Virus record (IMG/VR): IMGVR_UViG_3300044655_001122
Span: 1 to 41,520 of that record
Source of the DNA: a virus
Reading direction: 5' to 3' (one strand)
Length of the DNA stretch: 41,520 nucleotides
The position numbers and the translations under genes are program-made. The notes beneath the pieces were generated by a model. It did not search any database and was not told the DNA's origin. It saw only the letters and a program-made list of their open reading frames with translations. Positions 14,043 to 41,156 of the stretch are shown in pieces. The first letter of the stretch is position 1. Each line of letters begins with the position of its first letter.

Positions 14043-14606
14043 TCAGTTATTCACATTATCTGTGATACCAGCAATTGCTACAGTATCGTAAACAAACACA
14101 ACGTTAAAAGTATTTAACACATTTGGACGAGATGAATTGAATGAGATTTCATTAATCGTTCGGGGCCAAAGTCCATTTAAGTAAAATGTTTTCTGTACTG
14201 CCCCATTTAAATCTAGATGCTGAATAGTCCAGTTAACTTTATAGTTTGACCCATTAACATAATTTGTATTATTATTTACATGATTATTAATATAATTGTG
14301 CCACCGCTGAAATGATACCCACAGATCTCCGCTACCCGTATCATCTAGAATAGAAGCAGACCATGTTGAATATAATTTTTCACCAGGATAATATAGTTTT
14401 CGACCAAAATGGTCATATGCAATGGTACTAGTTTGCAATGTGGGAATTAAAGTAGATCTTACATGAAATTCTGATATTAAATTATTAGTATTTGAACTGT
14501 TTACAGTATCTCCACCAGATGGAAATCCACCCAGAATCTTAAAACGATTTTGTCTTGTTCCACCACCTAAAAAATTATCTTTAAATTGATTTAATGAAGT
14601 AGGCAT
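14043..14606 (-). CDS. Second tail-tube protein paralogue (gp19-like)
   Basis: The 187-aa product parallels the preceding gp19. It shares the N-terminal pattern SLNQFKDNFLGGGTRQNRFK (gp19: SLNTFKAAFKGGTRANRFK), the central YYPGEKLYSTWSASILDD (gp19: YFAGDRQYSVWPIKVYDD) and FYLNGLWPRTINEISF (gp19: IKLFRCWPSEVGGINF). It is therefore a tandem duplicate of the tail tube gene that has since diverged. It could form part of the tube, a tube terminator or a specialised ring. A ribosome site AAAGGA lies 8-9 nt upstream, and a late-like TATAAATG (complement 14623-14630) overlaps the end of gp19. Confidence 0.88.
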   Translation of the reverse strand: MPTSLNQFKDNFLGGGTRQNRFKILGGFPSGGDTVNSSNTNNLISEFHVRSTLIPTLQTSTIAYDHFGRKLYYPGEKLYSTWSASILDDTGSGDLWVSFQRWHNYINNHVNNNTNYVNGSNYKVNWTIQHLDLNGAVQKTFYLNGLWPRTINEISFNSSRPNVLNTFNVVFVYDTVAIAGITDNVNN

Positions 14607-14625: not shown

Positions 14626-15168
14626 TTATATACCAGTTAAAATTTCTAAATGGTCAAACGTTAAAGTTACGTCAAAAGTTACAAACTCAGAAGATCCCAT
14701 ATCAAAATTTATACCACCAACTTCACTGGGCCAGCATCGAAATAATTTAATTTCACGATAGATTTGACCATTTGCTTGTAATTGTTGAATAAAAAAATTA
14801 GTTTGAAGATTTTTATATCCAAAATCATTATTAGTTAATTTATGTGTTTGATGTCCGTCTAAAAGTTCTTTCCATTGCTGAAAAGCTTTCCACAAAACTT
14901 TATCACCGTCATCATATACTTTAATTGGCCAGACAGAATATTGTCTATCACCAGCAAAGTATGCCATACGACCTCTATATGGAACACCTATGACACCAAC
15001 ATCTGCTTTTGGTAAAGCTGCAGACGATATAGTATATGCTGATTTTGTTTGAGCAAAATTGGCATTATTAATACCAGTTGGAAATGAAGGAATAACCTTA
15101 AATCTATTGGCACGAGTGCCACCTTTAAATGCTGCTTTAAATGTATTTAATGAATTATTGATTGCCAT
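14626..15168 (-). CDS. gp19: Tail tube protein gp19
   Basis: The 180-aa protein matches T4 gp19 (163 aa). TRANRFKVIPSFP corresponds to the N-terminal strand, and AGDRQYSVWPIKVYDDGD matches T4 AGDRTFDDWTVTVMND. The C-terminal REIKLFRCWPSEVGGINFDM then EFVTFDVTLTFDHLE matches T4 GLWPTNVGELQLDW...TFEVTLALDYWE. Stacked hexamers form the rigid inner tube within the gp18 sheath. It lies one base after the gp18 stop with no clear ribosome site, so it may be translated by re-initiation. Confidence 0.95.
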   Translation of the reverse strand: MAINNSLNTFKAAFKGGTRANRFKVIPSFPTGINNANFAQTKSAYTISSAALPKADVGVIGVPYRGRMAYFAGDRQYSVWPIKVYDDGDKVLWKAFQQWKELLDGHQTHKLTNNDFGYKNLQTNFFIQQLQANGQIYREIKLFRCWPSEVGGINFDMGSSEFVTFDVTLTFDHLEILTGI

Positions 15169-27804: not shown

Positions 27805-28239
27805 ATGGCATACAGAACACAATTTTTTCCGCAAAATAAACAAAAATACGTTGGTGATTCTCAAAAAATCATTTGTAGATCATTATGGGAACGAACTGTC
27901 TGTAAATTTTGTGATGATCACCCCAGCATTATAAAGTGGTCATCTGAAGAAATTGCCATTCCATACTTTCACCCAATCGACAATAGAGTCAGAAATTACT
28001 ATCCAGATTTTTTAATTCAGTTTCAACAAAAAGAAAAGTTATGTTTATGGATGGTCGAAGTTAAACCAAAAAAACAAACAATCTTAAAAGAAAATGCTTC
28101 TAAAAATGAAAAGTATACTTGGGTAGTTAATAATGCAAAATGGGAAGCAGCCAAAAATTATTGCACTAAGAATAATATTGAATTTAAACTTCTAACAGAA
28201 AAAGAGTTATATAACAAATGTCATCTTCACAAAATTTAA
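27805..28239 (+). CDS. gp4: Head completion nuclease gp4
   Basis: The 144-aa protein matches T4 gp4 (gp50/65; 150 aa). The N-terminus NKQKYVGDSQKIICRSLWER then VCKFCDDHPSIIKWSSEEIA (11-51) is highly conserved. PD-(D/E)xK nuclease residues are visible as NYYPDF (D68) and VEVKPKK (E85, K87). gp4 joins late head completion, probably trimming protruding DNA before tail attachment. It is first in the plus-strand block and its 3' end overlaps the next gene by 22 nt. Confidence 0.93.
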   Translation: MAYRTQFFPQNKQKYVGDSQKIICRSLWERTVCKFCDDHPSIIKWSSEEIAIPYFHPIDNRVRNYYPDFLIQFQQKEKLCLWMVEVKPKKQTILKENASKNEKYTWVVNNAKWEAAKNYCTKNNIEFKLLTEKELYNKCHLHKI

Positions 28240-28781
28240 ATAATATTGAAACCATAAAAACCTATTTGGATACCCATCAAGGTCTTCAAAGAGCTAACAG
28301 GTATTCTGTTGTAATAAAAAATATAGCATCAAATGATGATGCTTTGACATGCTATCCGGAAGCAGTATCTTTTGGTGCAAGAGCTACAAATTACATATAT
28401 GACAATTTACAAGGATATGGTTATGGTCGGGCTGTTCCCAACTCAAGTAAGTTTGTTGGTGGAATAGTAATGACATTTATGGTTACTGGAGATTTAAGTA
28501 TTTTAACATACTTTAATGACTGGTTTGATTCTATGTATGCAAAGAATGCTAATAGTACGTTTACAGTGCCTTACTATGATCAGTCTGTTTTAGGTTCTGA
28601 ACTATATTTGACATACTTAGATCTAAACGGCAATCCTTCTCCAGGACGTTCTGTGTGGACATTTAAAGAAATTTATCCTGTCGAGTGTATGCCATTAGAA
28701 ATGTCATCAAAACCCGACTCTCCACTTTTATATCAAGTTGTACTAAATTATCGAAACATTGAAAGATCTACAGGAGATTAA
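28218..28781 (+). CDS. Tail-tube-fold protein, possible gp54-type tube initiator
   Basis: The 187-aa protein has a tube-like pattern: RANRYSVVIKNIA (about 20-32), AVSFGARATNYIYDNLQGYG, VMTFMVTGDLSILTYFNDWF (about 76-95, the strand-helix unit with a W-F end), YLTYLDLNGNPSPGRSVWTF then KEIYPVECMP (compare tube IKGLWPTNVGEL) and VVLNYRNIE. It is encoded between gp4 and the gp26-like gene, next to the divergent gp48-like gene. In T4, gp48 and gp54 are neighbours and start the tube, so a gp54-like role is plausible. A third or fourth tube paralogue is the alternative. Confidence 0.7.
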   Translation: MSSSQNLNNIETIKTYLDTHQGLQRANRYSVVIKNIASNDDALTCYPEAVSFGARATNYIYDNLQGYGYGRAVPNSSKFVGGIVMTFMVTGDLSILTYFNDWFDSMYAKNANSTFTVPYYDQSVLGSELYLTYLDLNGNPSPGRSVWTFKEIYPVECMPLEMSSKPDSPLLYQVVLNYRNIERSTGD

Positions 28782-31396: not shown

Positions 31397-32338
31397 ATGG
31401 GAAGCACAACAGACACAATTCCAATTCAAACATCTGGTATTACCGCAAATATTGCTACTGATTATATCGGTACAGGTGGAATTACTGGACATTACCAATT
31501 AATCAAACTTGCATATGGCGTTGCTGATTCTGCAACCATAGTTAGTAGCTCGAATCCCTTCCCCGTAACCATTGCGGCTGGTATGACTGCTACAATTTCT
31601 GGATTTACCGGAACCATTCAGGTTCAGGGTGTTGGTGGTGGTACTCCGGTACCAGTATCTGGAACTGTTGTAGTTACCGGTATCACTACTTCACAACTGT
31701 ATGTTACTACTACAAGTGGTTCTAGAGTTGAAATCACTGGTGGTATTCCGCTTACTAAAATTCGAGATGCAGTCTCAGTATTTGGTCCCAATGGTATAAC
31801 TTATGTTTATACTCACCTAGTTGACGCTGCAGGAAACTCATTAAGTTATACTAACGGTGCCTTGAATGTTAATATTCAAGGAGTTACTATCAGTACAACC
31901 ATTCAATCTACTGTTGGTGTATTTGGAATATCTGGAGCCACTGCTGTAGGTGTAAATGTTGGTAACACTGTTGGTATTAACGACACTGCTATTCTTTCTG
32001 GTATCACTGCTATGTATGGTCAGATTGTTGGACTACGTAGTGATCTGGGTGGCTTTGCCGTTATTCGTCCTACCGGTGGCACAGCATATAGAATTTCTAG
32101 TACTTCGACATCAACAGTTTTATCAGGCTTTACTTGTAAGTCTGGAGTCAATCTTAAAGCCGCATCAAGTAATACAGACATAATCTATATTGCAGATAGT
32201 TCCAGTGCAGGATCAACAACTAATACAGGATATGAATTAGATCCGGGTGAGTCGCTCTTTATTGATATTATCAATATGAATTTGATTGCACATAGAGCAA
32301 AATCTTCATCCCAAGTTCTAAGTTATATCGCCACATAA
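31397..32338 (+). CDS. Probable virion surface/fibre protein (313 aa)
   Basis: I do not recognise a named family. The protein is rich in Thr, Ser, Gly, Val and Ile, almost without Cys or Trp. It has repeated short strands (TIQVQGVGGGTPVPVSGTVV, VTGITTSQLYVTTTSG) typical of beta-structured fibre or decoration proteins. The C-terminal domain (about 215-313) reads GVNLKAASSNTDIIYIADSS, then TGYELDPGESLFIDIINMNL. That resembles small phage structural domains with a G-x-E-L-x-PG-(E/D)-S turn. It is the first gene of a plus-strand pair with the next gene, 1 nt apart. A role on the capsid or tail surface is inferred. Confidence 0.75.
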   Translation: MGSTTDTIPIQTSGITANIATDYIGTGGITGHYQLIKLAYGVADSATIVSSSNPFPVTIAAGMTATISGFTGTIQVQGVGGGTPVPVSGTVVVTGITTSQLYVTTTSGSRVEITGGIPLTKIRDAVSVFGPNGITYVYTHLVDAAGNSLSYTNGALNVNIQGVTISTTIQSTVGVFGISGATAVGVNVGNTVGINDTAILSGITAMYGQIVGLRSDLGGFAVIRPTGGTAYRISSTSTSTVLSGFTCKSGVNLKAASSNTDIIYIADSSSAGSTTNTGYELDPGESLFIDIINMNLIAHRAKSSSQVLSYIAT

Positions 32339-32339
32339 A

Positions 32340-33653
32340 ATGTTAAAAGACGCTTTAACAACAGTTAAGACATCATCTTCCTATACAGCACAATTTATAG
32401 GAAATACTGCAGATCCATGCTTTACTAAAGGTAAATTAAATGGATCTGCAAATGTTTTTGTAACTGGTAACTCTTTCTTCTTTGATTATTCTGAATTAAA
32501 GAATGGAACAGATTTAAAATTTTTAAATAAGTTTTTTAATGGTCGTACTGGTGGAGATACGTTTAATTTTTCAAGTGGTACATACTATGAACCTACTACC
32601 GGTTCTCAAATTACTTGGAATGGTACATTTACGCTTCAAGGTAAAACAGGAACATATAACCAATATATTTTATGTTCTGGGGTTACTGGTACTGCAGCAC
32701 TAACTGCTGGATATTATGTAAATAAGAACTTTACAAGTCCCATACAGTTTACAGCAACTACTGGGAATACAGCAAATATTCTTATATCAAAGACTCCAAG
32801 AAATACACCATTAAATTTAGATTATTTGGGTATATACGGATCTGACTATGGTTTAGAAGAGTATGTTGAAGTATTAGAAAGTGTATCTAACACTGGTCGT
32901 TTAACACTTAAAAACTTTGTTAAATTGAATGACGAAACAGAAGTTGTTTACGTAACAAATTCTCTAACAAATGAGAATTTATTCTTTAAGAAATCTACAA
33001 TTAATATATTGAATCGTGGTATTCCTTCACTAGAAGTATTATCATCAACTCAGATTCAAAATGGTGTTACAAAGATAGCCGATGCTACAACAGAAAATAC
33101 TATTTTACTTTTAGAAAATCAAAATACATATCAGTATGATCTAAAACAAAAAAATAATCCAACACAACACTGCTACTATTATCCAAATTCTACATTAAAA
33201 TCAATAACATCAAATAGTGAAAATATTTCAGAATATAAAAATTTATCATTCTTTTATTCTACAATTTATATTTTAACTACACAAACTGTTTATAATTTGG
33301 TTTATAATTCCGAAGGATTTAATATTTCGGAATTTGTAGGATTTAATAATTCTGAAGATAGAATTTATATTAATGGAAATGAAACTGATATTTTATCAAT
33401 AACAAAAGCATCAGTAATTTTACCTATGAAATTTGATTTATCAGATGCCTCAAATAGAGGTTCTGTTATAGAACTATTTACAGATTTTCAATGCACACAA
33501 ACGCTTATCTCTGATTATTATTTAACAGGATCACCAGGATATGAAGGTGCTGCTTTTATATATTTTGCTAACAGACCATCATCTGTATCAAATATTTATA
33601 TGAGATGTATTAAAAATACAACAAATATTATTCAAATTTCAATATCAGCCTGA
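32340..33653 (+). CDS. Hypothetical structural protein (437 aa)
   Basis: I do not recognise this protein. The N-terminal third is beta-rich with Gly/Thr/Tyr, as in FNGRTGGDTFNFSSGTYYEP and WNGTFTLQGKTGTYNQYILC. The middle has VEVLESVSNTGRLTLKNFVK, and the C-terminus has strands such as RIYINGNETDILSITKASVI. Composition fits a virion protein. It begins right after the stop of the 313-aa gene without an obvious ribosome site, so translation may be coupled. It ends in a 22-nt convergent overlap with the Sm-like gene. Confidence 0.75.
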   Translation: MLKDALTTVKTSSSYTAQFIGNTADPCFTKGKLNGSANVFVTGNSFFFDYSELKNGTDLKFLNKFFNGRTGGDTFNFSSGTYYEPTTGSQITWNGTFTLQGKTGTYNQYILCSGVTGTAALTAGYYVNKNFTSPIQFTATTGNTANILISKTPRNTPLNLDYLGIYGSDYGLEEYVEVLESVSNTGRLTLKNFVKLNDETEVVYVTNSLTNENLFFKKSTINILNRGIPSLEVLSSTQIQNGVTKIADATTENTILLLENQNTYQYDLKQKNNPTQHCYYYPNSTLKSITSNSENISEYKNLSFFYSTIYILTTQTVYNLVYNSEGFNISEFVGFNNSEDRIYINGNETDILSITKASVILPMKFDLSDASNRGSVIELFTDFQCTQTLISDYYLTGSPGYEGAAFIYFANRPSSVSNIYMRCIKNTTNIIQISISA

Positions 33654-33922
33654 ACAGATTCATCTTTAAATGGTTCTGTTCTCCATTTATTATAATATTG
33701 TATAAATTCAGGTTGTACATCAGCAGTAAATAAATATGCTTTTTCTGGAAGAAAAAATCCATCTTGTACATTAGTATATGGTAACCACGTACCCAAAATC
33801 AGTTTACCTTGTTCTACAGACATAATTATTGCAGCATCTTTAATAAAGATACCTTTTCTTTTTTCAACACAATCGGCAACAATTTCTTCATTATATGAAA
33901 TTTTAATAAATTTTATTGGCAT
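33632..33922 (-). CDS. Small Sm-like protein (96 aa)
   Basis: The 96-aa protein starts PIKFIKISYNEEIVADCVEK then RKGIFIKDAAIIMSVEQ. This is the same strand pattern (I-K-(I/L)-x-x-x-E-E-I-V-(A/G)-x-V) as the 224-aa protein at 6508, so both probably share an LSm-like barrel. The C-terminal half (LPYTNVQDGFFLPEKAYLFT) has no recognised motif. It is the last gene of the minus-strand Cys-rich operon and overlaps the end of the convergent 437-aa gene. Function is unknown. Confidence 0.75.
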   Translation of the reverse strand: MPIKFIKISYNEEIVADCVEKRKGIFIKDAAIIMSVEQGKLILGTWLPYTNVQDGFFLPEKAYLFTADVQPEFIQYYNKWRTEPFKDESVQADIEI

Positions 33923-33925
33923 ATA

Positions 33926-34330
33926 TTATACTTTCTTTTTATTTGCACATCCACATGGTTTTTTAATAGTATTAGAAGATTTACTACTATCATCACTTAA
34001 ATCTAAAATGTTATTGTTTGATACATTGATCAGTGGTTGAAATTTTAAAACAATATATGGTATAGAGATATATTGGTTAAATTTTTTTCTTCTGGCTTCA
34101 CATCCACAGTTACCTTTAGTTATTTTTATAATAAGATATTTGATGCCTGTGAACTTTGTCACAAAATCAATAACATCTCCCAATCCAATTGTTTTTATTA
34201 AAAGAATAATTGTTTTTTTGTATATTGTATTATTGCTTTGATTTGATTTCCAGTTAGCAGGAACATTATATGTTCCACCGTTTCCATCAGATGTTGAACT
34301 TGTATTAAATGTGAATCTACCTGTAAACAT
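33926..34330 (-). CDS. Small protein with GLGDxIxxxT and CGCxxRR motifs
   Basis: The 134-aa protein has IGLGDVIDFVTKFTGIK (48-64) and GNCGCEARRKKFNQ (73-86). Together these resemble a short domain seen in many phage and some bacterial proteins (GLGD-x-I-x(3)-T-x(3)-GIKPC-x-GC-x(2)-R-x(2)-LN). Here about ten extra residues separate the two halves. A second Cys pair, KKPCGCANKKK, ends the protein. The N-terminus is Ser/Asn/Gly-rich. Cys pairs suggest metal binding or a disulfide. It lies 3 nt upstream of the Sm-like gene in the same operon as the 1844-aa protein. Confidence 0.72.
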   Translation of the reverse strand: MFTGRFTFNTSSTSDGNGGTYNVPANWKSNQSNNTIYKKTIILLIKTIGLGDVIDFVTKFTGIKYLIIKITKGNCGCEARRKKFNQYISIPYIVLKFQPLINVSNNNILDLSDDSSKSSNTIKKPCGCANKKKV

Positions 34331-34355: not shown

Positions 34356-37300
34356 TTATGGCTCTGTTACAATAGCCTGACAAGTAATATCTCCAGATTG
34401 TACTACGGGAGTTTGTTGATTAGGATTAGGACCAGTTTGTGGAGAAACTATAACTTGATATGAACTAAGAGGTGGAGGATTTGGATTAATAAATCCTGAA
34501 AAACTTACTCTATCAAACGTTACACCATTAAACGAATTTGGTCTAAAGGCATTTATTAAATGCCATTTTTTAAGATCTCCACCCAATGGAGGAGCATAGT
34601 TATAAGTATTTCCAACATCAAAAACTAATAATTTTATATTTAATTGATCGTCTGTACACCCTGAGCTGTAACACGGTAATGTTGCACCTAACCAAGGATT
34701 ATCTGTGACACCAACATAACTGCTAGCAAGTTTATAAGGCGAACCTACTGGTACATTACGTTGATATGATACTATCCCATCATCTGCAGTACCATCTGTT
34801 TGCCAACCTAATGGTGTATCTTGACCATCTGGTGATACATACCAAATCCAACCACCAGGACCTAATATTGATGCTCCTGGATCTGCCAAAATACATCCAA
34901 CTGTTCCATTACCATCACATGGTTTACCTGTTTGACTTTGGTTTCTTAATGCAAAGAAATAGGAATCTTGTAACTTATCTAATCTAGCTTCACCCAAATA
35001 AACATAAGGGTACTGTAAAACACTATCATATGGAAATATTTTTAAAGCATTTGATGGTTTATTATATTCGTGTCGATATGGATCTTTGGTAAAAAATGTT
35101 TTATAAGTTGATGAAGCTTCATCATATCCAAAGTATGTTAATTTTTGTACATAATTAAAATATGAAATATTTGTAATATGTGTTTTACAACATCCATTTT
35201 TTCTTGAAAATTGTTTATACGATTGTATAAAATAATCTTTATTAGAATTAAATCCTACTTTTCCTACTGATGTAGCACATATGTCAGAGAAAGAAGGTCC
35301 ATCTGGACAACAATTTCTTATACAAGTACCACCCTCACAATTTGATTCACATACTAAAGCACATCCACTATCTTGTGGAGCCCAACCTCTTGCAGCTTCT
35401 AATAGCGGCATTCCAGTAGACTGCCAACAAATATCTGCTTTTTCTGGACATCCAGCACTAATGCTACTATTACCATCACTCAATCCACTTGCTTGATTAC
35501 CAAAGTCCAAATATTGTGTACATTGTGTAATATCATCTACTTCAACACTATGATTTGGTACATACGATTGGTATCTTCGAATAAAAGAATTCATCCACCA
35601 ATATTGAGGATTTCCACTATATTGCCAAGATATATCTTCTGTTCCTTCAAAATTATATCCTAAAATACTGCAAGGATCGGGTTGAGCAACTGGATCTCCA
35701 GAATTAGTTATTCTTTGGTCACAAAATCCACCATAAATCCATTTTGAAAAATCCCAATTTCCAGGAACTGCTCTAAAAAAAGCTTGGCGTTGAAAGTATT
35801 TTGGAATATTACTGGTACCCGCACCGAATTGGGCTGTTACAGCTTCAGGATCAACAAAATCTCGATAATTCCAAGTAGGAGATACAACATCACCGTATTT
35901 TAAAGCAATAGCATGCCCATATCCAAATGATATATCACTGTAACCAAATTCACTTATATCATCAGGATCTGGAGTAGACAAACCATAATAGTTTTCATTT
36001 TTTCTTGTCCATATAAACGTTTTATTTACACGAAAGAATTCTGTTCCAAATAGTTGAGAATCATTTCTAGTTTTATATAAAACAGCAAATCCATTTGATC
36101 CTGCTGTAATTTTTATTATATCTCCATCAAAAGTTTGAGACCAAGATCCAGTTGCACCGGGTAAATCTGTTGTTTTGTATGTAGGAAGCATTTCAGTTCT
36201 TCCCCATACATATACAGTAGAATTAGAAGCAACCATACTATAGTCTGGTCCACCATCAACAAATATTAATTTATCTGTAGGACTATGTTGAGAAAGTAAA
36301 TCAAAAGATTCTGCAAGTAAAGATTCATCCTGAGAACTACTAGGGATATCTGTTTTATAGGTTACAGTCCACTGATCTGCTAAATTTTTTACAGAATCTG
36401 GAAGAAAGGTTGGTATTGTAGTTCCAATTTTTTCACCTAAAGGATTAATATAATAATATGCACCCCAAACTCTTACTTGATTATCAGATTGTATTGCAAT
36501 TGCATGATAATTACCAGATCCAATTTGGGTATAATATGGTCTACTATAACCTGCAGTAAGACCATTAATAGTATTACCAGAATCGTCAATAGGAACACGT
36601 TGTATTAATCCTGTACGCGCATCCTTTAAATCATCAGGTGTAGATGAACTATATCTACAAGTTTCATTTATATTTCCATATGTTATGCCATTGTATCTAC
36701 CATAAAATAGTCCGCTACTATTTATTTGTAATGTAACATTATATTCGCCTTCAGATACGTAGCCTGGTTTAGCGTCATATCTATTAATAATATTATTTGT
36801 TCCAGGAAGATTTTCATTATTTTGACCATACTGAAATATATTATCAGTATTATCACCGGTTACTGCTAATTCACCCATAGAAGATATTGCAACGGTATGT
36901 TTACTTCCATTAGCAACATCAGACCAAACCATTTCTCTATTGTCAGCATAATCACCATATCCACCTGGATTTGAAAAACTAGAACGAACAAACGTTCCGT
37001 AATCGCATGCTTTATTACCCCAAGAACGTAATCTATATTGAGGGAGTTTTGCATCATAATTATAAACTGGATAATTTTCTCCAGGTATTCTTGGAATAAC
37101 ACCATCAGCTAGATCACAGAAAGAATCTTGACTAGGTGATGATGTACAAGATGTTGATGTTTGATTAAAATCAAAAAACTCAGGATATTCAACTAATGCA
37201 ACTTCAAAGGTACTACTTTTACCACCAAGTTTTACTAAAATACCTAAAGTAGGATCTGCACCAGCAGCTTGATTATCTTGATCTGCAACCAAATCTCTTG

Positions 37301-39890
37301 GTAAACAATTTGCAAGATTTTGCTCACCATATCCAGATGCAACTAATTTTCCTTGATATGTGTGCCAAAAATTAGTATTTAATCCTGCAGTAACTTTACT
37401 AATTCCTTTTGGAAACCATGGATTAGTTAAACTGACTACAGTGAGTATAGATGGAACTGTAATTTGATCATAAACATTATTTCTACATGAATCACCAGTA
37501 CACCCCCATGCTACTGCTATACCGGATTCAATATAAGATGGTAAAACTGCACGTCTAGGAAAAGGAAATGTTTGTAAATCTTGGAACTTACTTACCGTTG
37601 TGTCTGACAATAATTTTTGTTTAATTATTTTTGGAGTTACACTTCCAGTTACTGGTTCAACATCTAAAAATTCAACTAAATTTTTATAACCGGCTGTACC
37701 ACCAACAATTGAAGAAATATATGGATTTAATACAATATCATTATTTACATCATATTCTGCAGATTGAATAATTTGTGTTGTTTCTGTTGCAATATCTATT
37801 GCATGATCCTTTACACGTAAAATTCCTGCTCGTACCATTTCTTCTAATGCAGCACTAACATATGCATAATCTGATATTAAAGTAGTTCCATCAATATCAA
37901 TAGGTGTTGGTGTTGGGGCTCTATTACCTTTTTCTATTAAACTATAAAAATAGTTATAATAACCCTTTAAAAATCTTTCAGGATTAAATAATTCACCTGC
38001 TATTAAAAGATTGTTATTTAAAGAATAAAGTTTAAATGTATAAAGATCAAAATGAAATATTGGAATCTGTGAACCAACATACATTACTCTTCGGGGACTA
38101 GTTCTTATTAACGAGTAACGTATAGCTTCTTGTCCATGAAAATTCATATCATTTCCACTTATATTACCACTATATGGTATTTCAAATGGTGATGATAATA
38201 CATTACCATGATTTAAATTAGCTGCTAGATTAGGATGCTTAACACCATCACCAGATCTATGTGCCCATGCTTCAAAATGATGTTCTAATGTTACATATCC
38301 TATTAGCTGATCTTTTAATCTGGTTTTATTTACTGTAACTTCTTTGTAGCGTATATCGTATTCAATTGGCATATCATTAGATGATATTTTTTGAAAACGT
38401 GTAGGGTCATACGATGGTCCAAAATCTCTATTTGGATCATCAGATCTACCAAAAGTCCAAATATCAAATCCGGATTTTAGTTTACCATTATTTTTATCTT
38501 CTTGTAAAGCAAGTCTCATTAAATATGGAGAAATTCCATATGCAAAACATAATTTTCTATATCTTGGATTATAAATCTCGGCAGGAATATTTGCTGGTAT
38601 AGATGGATTACTTGAAGGGGAAAATGAACAATGTTCTCCAGCCATACCACCTTGTGTCCAAAGTCTAAATTTTCCAGAATGAAAAGGATATGTTATATTA
38701 TTTCTTGCAATTGCTGAATTCCGAGCAAAGACACCTGCAACTGTATCCATACCAGGACTACCACACCAACAACATCCTATTTCGGATTTTTTCATTGGTG
38801 ATTGAAATGGATTCATAAATGGCAGATAGCCATATTGATATTCTTTTTTAGAAATATTTTCTTTTTTAAATACTGTATCTTGAATACCACCCTTAATGTG
38901 TGCAAAACGCCTACATTCACACGGTGTTGAGGGCCAGGTACCAGATAATGGTGGTGATCCACCAATACACGGAGAATCCAGTGCATTTGGATTAAGTATT
39001 CCTGCATTATTAGTGGTTACATTAAAAGCAGGAGAACATGATCTATCTACAGATCCAAATAAACTACTATGATGATATGCTTGACACTGAGGTATCATAG
39101 GTTCGCCACCAAAAGCATATTCTGGAGGATACCAAATAAAATAGCATGCAGTGTGTCGATACATTATATCAAAATCATCACCACCAGGTGCACCATTACC
39201 AAATAAACATTGTTTACATGCGTCAGGTGGAGCATTTTGATTACATCCACCACCACCACCAGGACCATCGGGACCACCGGGACCACCACCCGGATCAGTA
39301 TCAACCCCACCACCTGGAGTAATGACTCCTGGATCACCCGTACTTAGTTGACCACAACAAGAATTACAAAATGATGAACATGCGGCTGCAATTGCCGGAT
39401 CACGTCCACACAATCCAGTTCCACTTATAGGTGGACCATATAGTCCAGAACATTTTGGACAAACAAGACGAATTAAAGCAGCTCTATCTATACCACCAAA
39501 GGGAGCTGGTCCAGTATTATCTCCCGGTCCAATACTATAACCTGCATCTTGGATTGCGGCATAACATCCTTCACCAAATATTTCATTTGGAGAACGTTGA
39601 GAACTCCCAAGTCCACCCCCACCTCCACCAAGACCTGTTGCAATATTTGTACCACCACCATAATCAGGATTACATATGTTTGGACATACGTTTGCACAAG
39701 TTTCACATTTTGATTTTGCATCATCTATACAATTATTTGAAAATGATTCTTGGCAAGGATTATTATCATTTTGAAATAAACAATCACAACATTCTTGTGG
39801 ATAATATTTATTACACGGAGAATATGGTTGATCAATAGTTTCACTTTTTAAAAATGAAAGATATTTACTAACTGTTTTTCTATTTAACAT
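34356..39890 (-). CDS. Giant Cys/Gly-rich protein with RCC1-like repeats (1844 aa)
   Basis: The N-terminal 250 residues contain 22 Cys in clusters (ECCDC, CETCANVCPNIC, CNSCCG, CKQC) and Gly/Pro runs near 77-95 and 190-215. Residues about 250-780 are mixed and include ISPYLMRLALQEDKNNGKLK. Residues about 790-1340 hold at least five RCC1/BLIP-II-like blades with the pattern (I/V)-x-x-G-x-x-(H/Y)-x-x-(A/V)-(I/V)-x-x-x-G-x-(V/L)-x-x-(W/T)G: examples are VANGSKHTVAISSMGELAVT, IGSGNYHAIAIQSDNQVRVW and FGYGHAIALKYGD. A second Cys-rich part spans about 1410-1640. This suggests a propeller presented on the virion, perhaps binding host or glycan. No tape-measure-like coiled coil is seen. Confidence 0.85.
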   Translation of the reverse strand: MLNRKTVSKYLSFLKSETIDQPYSPCNKYYPQECCDCLFQNDNNPCQESFSNNCIDDAKSKCETCANVCPNICNPDYGGGTNIATGLGGGGGGLGSSQRSPNEIFGEGCYAAIQDAGYSIGPGDNTGPAPFGGIDRAALIRLVCPKCSGLYGPPISGTGLCGRDPAIAAACSSFCNSCCGQLSTGDPGVITPGGGVDTDPGGGPGGPDGPGGGGGCNQNAPPDACKQCLFGNGAPGGDDFDIMYRHTACYFIWYPPEYAFGGEPMIPQCQAYHHSSLFGSVDRSCSPAFNVTTNNAGILNPNALDSPCIGGSPPLSGTWPSTPCECRRFAHIKGGIQDTVFKKENISKKEYQYGYLPFMNPFQSPMKKSEIGCCWCGSPGMDTVAGVFARNSAIARNNITYPFHSGKFRLWTQGGMAGEHCSFSPSSNPSIPANIPAEIYNPRYRKLCFAYGISPYLMRLALQEDKNNGKLKSGFDIWTFGRSDDPNRDFGPSYDPTRFQKISSNDMPIEYDIRYKEVTVNKTRLKDQLIGYVTLEHHFEAWAHRSGDGVKHPNLAANLNHGNVLSSPFEIPYSGNISGNDMNFHGQEAIRYSLIRTSPRRVMYVGSQIPIFHFDLYTFKLYSLNNNLLIAGELFNPERFLKGYYNYFYSLIEKGNRAPTPTPIDIDGTTLISDYAYVSAALEEMVRAGILRVKDHAIDIATETTQIIQSAEYDVNNDIVLNPYISSIVGGTAGYKNLVEFLDVEPVTGSVTPKIIKQKLLSDTTVSKFQDLQTFPFPRRAVLPSYIESGIAVAWGCTGDSCRNNVYDQITVPSILTVVSLTNPWFPKGISKVTAGLNTNFWHTYQGKLVASGYGEQNLANCLPRDLVADQDNQAAGADPTLGILVKLGGKSSTFEVALVEYPEFFDFNQTSTSCTSSPSQDSFCDLADGVIPRIPGENYPVYNYDAKLPQYRLRSWGNKACDYGTFVRSSFSNPGGYGDYADNREMVWSDVANGSKHTVAISSMGELAVTGDNTDNIFQYGQNNENLPGTNNIINRYDAKPGYVSEGEYNVTLQINSSGLFYGRYNGITYGNINETCRYSSSTPDDLKDARTGLIQRVPIDDSGNTINGLTAGYSRPYYTQIGSGNYHAIAIQSDNQVRVWGAYYYINPLGEKIGTTIPTFLPDSVKNLADQWTVTYKTDIPSSSQDESLLAESFDLLSQHSPTDKLIFVDGGPDYSMVASNSTVYVWGRTEMLPTYKTTDLPGATGSWSQTFDGDIIKITAGSNGFAVLYKTRNDSQLFGTEFFRVNKTFIWTRKNENYYGLSTPDPDDISEFGYSDISFGYGHAIALKYGDVVSPTWNYRDFVDPEAVTAQFGAGTSNIPKYFQRQAFFRAVPGNWDFSKWIYGGFCDQRITNSGDPVAQPDPCSILGYNFEGTEDISWQYSGNPQYWWMNSFIRRYQSYVPNHSVEVDDITQCTQYLDFGNQASGLSDGNSSISAGCPEKADICWQSTGMPLLEAARGWAPQDSGCALVCESNCEGGTCIRNCCPDGPSFSDICATSVGKVGFNSNKDYFIQSYKQFSRKNGCCKTHITNISYFNYVQKLTYFGYDEASSTYKTFFTKDPYRHEYNKPSNALKIFPYDSVLQYPYVYLGEARLDKLQDSYFFALRNQSQTGKPCDGNGTVGCILADPGASILGPGGWIWYVSPDGQDTPLGWQTDGTADDGIVSYQRNVPVGSPYKLASSYVGVTDNPWLGATLPCYSSGCTDDQLNIKLLVFDVGNTYNYAPPLGGDLKKWHLINAFRPNSFNGVTFDRVSFSGFINPNPPPLSSYQVIVSPQTGPNPNQQTPVVQSGDITCQAIVTEP

Positions 39891-39896
39891 ATAAAA

Positions 39897-40139
39897 TTAA
39901 CCACCACTCTCAGCACACCCACTACCACAATTAACATTATTTGTTGATGATTGACCATAAATTGTTCTTGGTGATCTCTGTACACCTGGTCTTTTTATTT
40001 TTAAAATTATTAAATCGTCGGGGTGTACTGGGTTTGCAGTTACCATTGTAGCACCAACTAAAGTAATAAATTCATCAAATAAAAATGGGCTACAACATGT
40101 ACGATTAGCAGTACCACAACAACATGATTTTTTAGGCAT
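39897..40139 (-). CDS. Small Cys-rich protein (80 aa)
   Basis: The 80-aa protein begins MPKKSCCCGTANRTCCSPFL and ends with NCGSGCAESGG, giving seven Cys. Between them lies a short strand-rich part, FITLVGATMVTANPVHPDDL. It is the first gene of the minus-strand operon, 6 nt before the 1844-aa gene, under a perfect late promoter. The shared Cys richness suggests that it works with the large protein, perhaps through metal or disulfide links. No family is recognised. Confidence 0.7.
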   Translation of the reverse strand: MPKKSCCCGTANRTCCSPFLFDEFITLVGATMVTANPVHPDDLIILKIKRPGVQRSPRTIYGQSSTNNVNCGSGCAESGG

Positions 40140-40156
40140 AATAAGGTCTCACATCT

Positions 40157-40164
40157 TATTTATA
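40157..40164 (-). promoter_or_regulatory. T4-type late promoter TATAAATA for the Cys-rich operon
   Basis: A perfect TATAAATA on the minus strand lies 17 nt before the ATG at 40139, giving a predicted leader of about 12 nt. It sits just downstream of the terminator of the preceding HTH gene. Confidence 0.65.
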
Positions 40165-40173
40165 CCCATAAAA

Positions 40174-40204
40174 CAACAAAGGCTCCCAGAAGGAGCCTTT
40201 GTTG
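40174..40204 (-). terminator. Rho-independent terminator after the HTH-like gene
   Basis: A 13-bp perfect stem, CAACAAAGGCTCC / GGAGCCTTTGTTG (40174-40186 and 40192-40204), has a 5-nt loop. On the minus strand it is followed by TTTT. It lies 20 nt after the stop of the 78-aa gene and shields the late promoter behind it. Confidence 0.85.
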
Positions 40205-40535: not shown

Positions 40536-40556
40536 ATAATGACTGAGGAGGGCTTT

Positions 40557-41156
40557 ATGGAACAGAAGAGTCATCAGTTTATAAAATTTGTACGCAAACA
40601 TCTTGCCCAATATGGCATGAAACTTATACTTGGACGCGGTAAATGCGTCAATGTAGACGGTTTTCGCTGTTCTGGGTGCTTTGATGAGTCTGGAAAGGCG
40701 ATTCGGATAGCCAGACATTGTAATGAATTTTTACATGTTCTAGTTCATGAATATTGTCATTTTTTACAGTACATTAATAGCAGTAAAGTGTATGAAAAGT
40801 CATATAAAGCCTCAAATATTGTAGATGGATGGTTAAAAGGTAAAAATTATGCGGCTAAAGATGTTAAAAGGGCATTTTTTATCGTTCGTTCAATGGAAAG
40901 AGACTGTGAAAAACGAGCAGTTCGTTTAATAAATGAATTTAAATTAAAAATTGATACAAAAATGTATTCGAAACGGGCTCATGTATACATCTATAGCCAT
41001 TTCATGATGGAAAAATCACGAAAGTTCTATTCTTTTAAACAAGATCCATATTATAGCAAATGCGTTTTACGCATCATGCCTTCTAACATGGCTGTTCTAA
41101 GTCATGTATCTATTCCAACAAAGGTCTATTCTGTTTTAGAATCTTTGATGAAATGA
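40557..41156 (+). CDS. HExxH zinc metallopeptidase-like protein (199 aa)
   Basis: The protein has a zinc-peptidase motif VLVHEYCHFLQY (HEYCH at residues 64-68). A later helix with SMERDCEKRAVRLINEF (about 112-128) could give the third ligand. The FRCSGCFDE segment (37-45) before it may form a strand-turn. I chose the ATG at 40557 because GAGGAGGG ends 4 nt before it, whereas the ATG at 40539 has no ribosome site. Substrate and role are unknown; protein processing during infection is possible. It has a late promoter and overlaps the convergent gene by 31 nt. Confidence 0.8.
   Translation: MEQKSHQFIKFVRKHLAQYGMKLILGRGKCVNVDGFRCSGCFDESGKAIRIARHCNEFLHVLVHEYCHFLQYINSSKVYEKSYKASNIVDGWLKGKNYAAKDVKRAFFIVRSMERDCEKRAVRLINEFKLKIDTKMYSKRAHVYIYSHFMMEKSRKFYSFKQDPYYSKCVLRIMPSNMAVLSHVSIPTKVYSVLESLMK

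Follow-up and report, generated by a model that had tools for sequence, protein, structure and literature searches.

The stretch of DNA analysed here, referred to as the window, comprises positions 1 to 41,520 of the IMG/VR virus record IMGVR_UViG_3300044655_001122. This 41.5-kb record belongs to a T4-like myovirus, with PHROG matches for the major head protein, portal, large terminase, sheath, tail tube and baseplate genes. The closest matches of its head protein are found in cyanophages, at no more than 53% identity. A cyanobacterial host, considered on the basis of photosystem genes, was dropped as a proposal, as PF00124 occurred in 0 of 10 contigs (all of them possibly fragments). The window also encodes three tail-tube-like proteins (phrog_45), two in tandem on the minus strand (14043-14606 and 14626-15168) and one on the plus strand near the baseplate genes (28218-28781), as well as a 205-aa protein at 40539-41156 (+) with an HExxH-type motif (HEYCH), whose weak match to DUF6782, a putative metallopeptidase family, stays below the cut-off.

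The locus of interest is an operon on the minus strand (Table 1). An earlier note on this DNA had described an 80-aa ORF with seven Cys followed by an 1844-aa ORF with Gly/Pro linkers, and both ORFs, as well as the linkers, are present as described. The same note had placed a perfect late promoter ahead of them. What holds is its location: TATAAATA lies just before the 80-aa ORF, and its position behind a terminator-like repeat is kept in 14 of 14 loci, either as TATAAATA or as CTAAATA. The octamer as such is not rare in the window, where 11 copies were found and 9.2 are expected by chance. With a TATAAATA-type late promoter ahead, the genes can be classed, judging from sequence, as a T4-like late operon.

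Table 1. Features of the operon and its surroundings, in window coordinates.
Feature	Position	Strand	Conservation
Terminator-like inverted repeat, then T-rich stretch; ends the upstream HTH gene	40175..40203	-	Similar repeat ahead of the operon in 14 loci
TATAAATA, late-promoter-type octamer	40157..40164	-	Exact in 9/14 loci, CTAAATA in 5/14
80-aa Cys-rich ORF, 7 Cys; corresponds to the N-terminal module of fused relatives (2050-2283 aa)	39897..40139	-	
1844-aa Cys-rich protein with RCC1-type propeller	34356..39890	-	
Residues 1-84, N-terminal Cys cluster	39639..39890	-	8 Cys kept in 11/11 sequences
Residues 215-777, conserved, without recognised fold; motifs WYPPEY, HHFExW, KDHAxD	37560..39248	-	
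Residues 778-1345, seven-bladed RCC1/BLIP-II-type propeller	35856..37559	-	
Residues 1346-1844, C-terminal region, conserved and again rich in Cys	34359..35855	-	
Small Cys protein of 134 aa with motifs GNCGCEARR and, at the C-terminus, CGC; next gene of the operon	33926..34330	-	
96-aa protein, phrog_527 (function unknown); next in operon after the 134-aa gene	33632..33922	-	
437-aa protein, same diverged block, convergent	32340..33653	+	
313-aa protein, same diverged block, convergent	31397..32338	+	

Relatives of the large protein were found on 22 IMG/VR contigs, many of them near-duplicates and all from one T4-like clade. The protein of L001 is 100% identical to that of the window, a near group (L007-L013) shares 46-50% identity with it, and a distant group approximately 27-38%, depending on segment and method. 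Rescans of the viral contigs with other alignments added L023 and L024 only, and then nothing more. A pattern scan of genome contigs gave 120 matches with no relative among them, and tblastn against INPHARED returned nothing with the window protein (E<=1e-5), L005 (E<=0.1) or L017 (E<=1) as the query.

Surveying the neighbours in related phages, as the earlier note had suggested, revealed a core gene order that does not vary among the 17 mapped loci, within the reach of each contig: HTH gene, terminator-like repeat, late-type promoter, 80-aa module, large gene, small Cys gene, phrog_527 gene, two convergent genes, gp33-like gene, and gp32. The gp33-like gene, named for its position next to gp32, as in cyanophage S-CAM1, did not cluster with the others in the case of L017, and the distant group carries an extra 93-aa gene before the convergent pair. 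A search by the 437-aa gene yielded seven new contigs; four end before the slot, and all three that reach it contain the large gene. We saw no counterpart of the operon in the annotation of S-CAM1 around gp33/gp32. A single ORF of 2050-2283 aa encodes both the large protein and the 80-aa module in the full-length relatives L005, L014, L016, L017, and L018, and a single fused ORF is likewise present in L015, L019, and L020, which are cut; two adjacent ORFs are found in the window, L002-L004, L007-L010, L012, and L013. Given that they are fused into one gene in relatives, which the earlier note had not recognised, we treat the two ORFs as one unit. The large-protein tree groups the split L002/L004 with the fused L005/L018, and the fused or split state has therefore changed more than once or been exchanged.

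The 1844-aa protein contains 58 Cys. The earlier note had counted 22 of them in the first 250 residues, and this count is exact (binomial P 5e-14; the background is 1.04% Cys, taken from the remaining 44 members of a greedy set of 46 ORFs that may include spurious ones). Ten Cys fall into residues 1-84, eight into a Gly-rich linker (residues 85-214), 14 into residues 215-460, none into residues 461-777, and seven into the propeller; the second Cys-rich region reported previously is borne out by 14 Cys in residues 1346-1610. Conservation of the Cys had been set beforehand as a point on which the proposal could fail, and it held: 35 of the 58 (60%) are kept in at least six of seven distant relatives. 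No other residue type is as well conserved across these seven sequences, Trp reaching 45% and Gly 29%, and C34, C37, C46, C54, C62, C65, C69, and C73 are kept in each of 11 sequences compared, including the window.

Under any of the functional readings discussed below, these Cys might, instead of forming disulfides, be cytoplasmic ligands of a metal (Zn or Fe-S). Phage proteins are assembled in a reducing cytoplasm, which would suit this option, as would the C-x2-C-x3-C-x3-C arrangement (residues 62-73) and further closely spaced Cys pairs, shared by 11 of 11 sequences. However, CxxC spacing is not clearly enriched (6 versus 3.0 by local shuffle, p 0.07) and zinc or ferredoxin families gave no match, so that we regard metal binding as possible but somewhat doubtful. 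CxxxC spacing is weakly enriched (7 versus 3.0 by local shuffle, p 0.02). A [4Fe-4S] ferredoxin reading of C62-C73 was dropped, as the x2/x3/x3 pattern is unlike ferredoxin spacing and comes without a family match, and the parity of Cys numbers was abandoned as an argument for disulfides because odd counts are common.

For the centre of the protein, at least five RCC1/BLIP-II-like blades had been claimed, and a propeller is indeed found at approximately residues 788-1335, where seven blades can be read from strands and repeats. In a search against RCC1 families, Pfam RCC1_2 (PF13540) scored 31.9 bits and passed its cut-off of 22, and WD40_RLD (PF25390), which models the full RCC1-like domain, scored 40.3 bits and did not reach its curated cut-off of 150; matches to both recur in 15 of 15 family members (E<=0.01). 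A profile of residues 760-1844 retrieved only RCC1-superfamily chains from the PDB, with HERC2 as the best match (E=2.4e-12). Structure prediction of the region gave an RCC1/BLIP-II fold, and VIA-align matched it over model residues ~30-573, corresponding to protein residues ~789-1332, with Z-scores of 24.5 for the HERC2 RLD (296 residues at 3.7 A) and 22.5 for BLIP-II (261 residues at 3.0 A), both of which share fold and repeat type with the model. Foldseek returned an E-value of 2.6e-11, and the viral proteins matched by fold include RCC1-type ones from giant viruses and from several phages. Mean pLDDT of the model is 40 overall, and mostly 50-80 in the propeller strands, a region of moderate confidence; the propeller call stands despite this weak model, given that the profile match is independent of it. 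A curated family model and the predicted fold both assign the propeller domain, taken alone, to the RCC1/BLIP-II superfamily.

The whole-protein models are of low confidence (mean pLDDT 40 and 34). Residues 215-777 had no profile match in the PDB, and their model (mean pLDDT 34) had no fold match at E<=0.001. Structure prediction provided no usable model or fold match for residues 1-800, and we therefore do not claim a new fold there. BLIP-II and the RCC1-like domains of the eukaryotic proteins HERC2, UVR8, and RPGR match the propeller only, with the flanking regions unmatched.

RCC1-type proteins have been detected by virion mass spectrometry in phages phAPEC6 (PMC7247149) and W70 (PMC11370258), and gp1 of GAP32 has been reported as an RCC1-type structural protein (PMC5259590). 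As far as the relevant passages go, the phrog_4219 protein of W70, the 'DNA condensation' proteins of phAPEC6, and GAP32 gp1 are RCC1/BLIP-II-type proteins of the particle, and the window protein is of a similar type. Those of these published phage proteins that are tabulated there have 30-43 kDa, the size of a propeller, whereas the window protein reaches 1844 aa and carries Cys-rich flanks. Literature searches turned up no Cys-rich RCC1 phage protein that we recognised. Searches of the 15 members found no match to phrog_4219 at E<=1 (HMMER filters can drop weak matches), and weak matches to phrog_16766 in five of 15 (best E 0.012) and to phrog_7220 in one of 15 (E 0.0043). Propellers of other kinds are also known from virions. 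The C-terminal propeller of phiKZ gp131 (PDB 4gbf) is described as seven-bladed and located at the baseplate periphery of a myovirus (PMC4901313); its VIA-align score against our model (Z 14.7, rmsd 5.7) is below those of RCC1/BLIP-II proteins (22-24), and it has no sequence match to the large protein. Gp45 of Staphylococcus phage phi11 is a propeller-containing virion receptor-binding protein, five-bladed and trimeric (PMC4901313), which we liken to the window protein by description, and for which the passages concerned mention no Cys-rich regions. We conclude that the large protein is a new, unusually large, Cys-rich version of a propeller protein known from a few other phages, and the published RCC1-type virion proteins, together with the phiKZ and phi11 propellers, support a virion or adhesion type of role.

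Comparison of the related genomes G001 and G003 places the large gene more closely. The eight genes with PHROG labels for DNA metabolism, DNA binding or dehydrogenase are all 87-99% identical (helicase 98%, SbcC 98%, SbcD 99%, gp32 97%, dehydrogenase 96%, clamp loader 94%, DNA-binding 88%, clamp 87%). In contrast, 14 genes taken as structural or packaging, labelled partly by gene order and window homologues (one being, we presume, the prohead protease), share 42-80%, and the large gene, at 29%, is among the lowest. In the rank test of these groups, five of the 13 'non-virion' genes are unlabelled small genes, and we rely on the eight PHROG-labelled ones; left out were a 132-aa gene (82%), a 141-aa gene (74%), a 407-aa glycosyltransferase-like gene (67%), unmatched sugar genes, and other diverged tail-block genes (e.g. 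33%, 36%). The division into conserved and diverged genes, drawn from a single genome pair, is broken by some unlabelled genes (67-82%) and by sugar-modification genes. The sugar-modification block is almost wholly replaced between these otherwise close phages (G003:C1:24011-33785 versus G001:C1:59788-72712). Nucleotide similarity by blastn (89%) covers the HTH gene, the terminator, the promoter, and the first four codons, ends 12 nt inside the operon, and resumes as a long block at gp32 (87%). Gene trees show a comparable picture: L005/L018 lie inside the window clade in the gp32 tree and join the distant clade in the trees of the large gene, of its two small partners in the operon, and of the 437-aa, 313-aa, and tube-cap genes. 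As read from sequence comparison, the large gene falls with the virion genes, irrespective of whether exchange or faster divergence shaped the block.

Given that it diverges together with structural genes in G001/G003, we place the large protein among virion genes; as a search for virion proteomics of this clade found none, its presence in the particle is inferred, and very probable. An alternative outside the virion would be a released product: a late non-virion protein, secreted or freed at lysis, might target nearby cells or rival phages. Since propellers of the BLIP-II kind can be soluble inhibitors, the fold match to BLIP-II, like the Cys-rich composition, would agree with such a role. 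Yet the large gene diverges with structural genes, and no enzyme or toxin match of the protein was found among families or solved structures, which makes this option very unlikely.

Within the virion, we lean, at slightly better than even, towards the 80-aa and 1844-aa ORFs encoding one late component, most likely an appendage on the outside of the particle for adhesion or decoration. The seven-bladed RCC1/BLIP-II-type propeller might serve as the interaction surface of this appendage, and the Cys-rich N- and C-terminal regions could be structural, anchoring or stiffening the large protein by means of bound metal or of disulfides that form once the particle is released. The small Cys protein of the following gene would be a probable partner. 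External placement is less sure than presence in the virion, and host-surface binding and the role of the Cys are inferred more weakly still. A hypervariable receptor-binding tip was considered and dropped: no strongly hypervariable tip of the kind to be expected in a receptor-binding protein was seen among close relatives, the Gly linker varying most and blades 1-3 only moderately. Relatives also encode long proteins with collagen-like repeats as candidate fibres (G003:C1:2894-16260 and G001:C1:84664-91107), which, together with the missing tip, disfavours a sole receptor-binding role.

The even divergence among close relatives would also fit a protein of the head or tail surface, or of the head interior, whose role would be to stabilise the particle or to order DNA and not to bind the host. 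Dense conserved Cys suit a stabilising role, and a DNA-ordering role has been suggested by the authors of the phAPEC6 (PMC7247149) and W70 (PMC11370258) studies. However, that suggestion, as presented there, was argued from eukaryotic RCC1 without a test, and the block diverges along with tail and baseplate genes; we consider this reading rather unlikely. An extended form of the appendage proposal would have the three Cys-rich ORFs (80-aa, 1844-aa, and next small) build a covalently cross-linked structure in which extracellular oxidation locks the binding form of the propeller, the clade exchanging one cassette under a fixed late promoter; we hold this combination to be improbable.

RCC1-type propellers in phage particles have, in the published accounts as far as these go, been described without tested function. 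Here, the propeller is embedded in a 200-kDa-class, Cys-dense protein that is conserved across an uncultured T4-like clade and diverges with virion genes. The operon thus offers a concrete test case for whether phage propellers are adhesion modules, and for what dozens of conserved Cys do in a phage protein produced in a reducing cytoplasm.

One further observation concerns the start of contig G001 (L030:1-9500). Eight copies of a 60-nt element, at 63-93% of the reference copy and spaced 0.4-2.6 kb, occur in this stretch; the core of the element is absent from the window. The stretch is partly common to G003 and also contains four tRNA genes.
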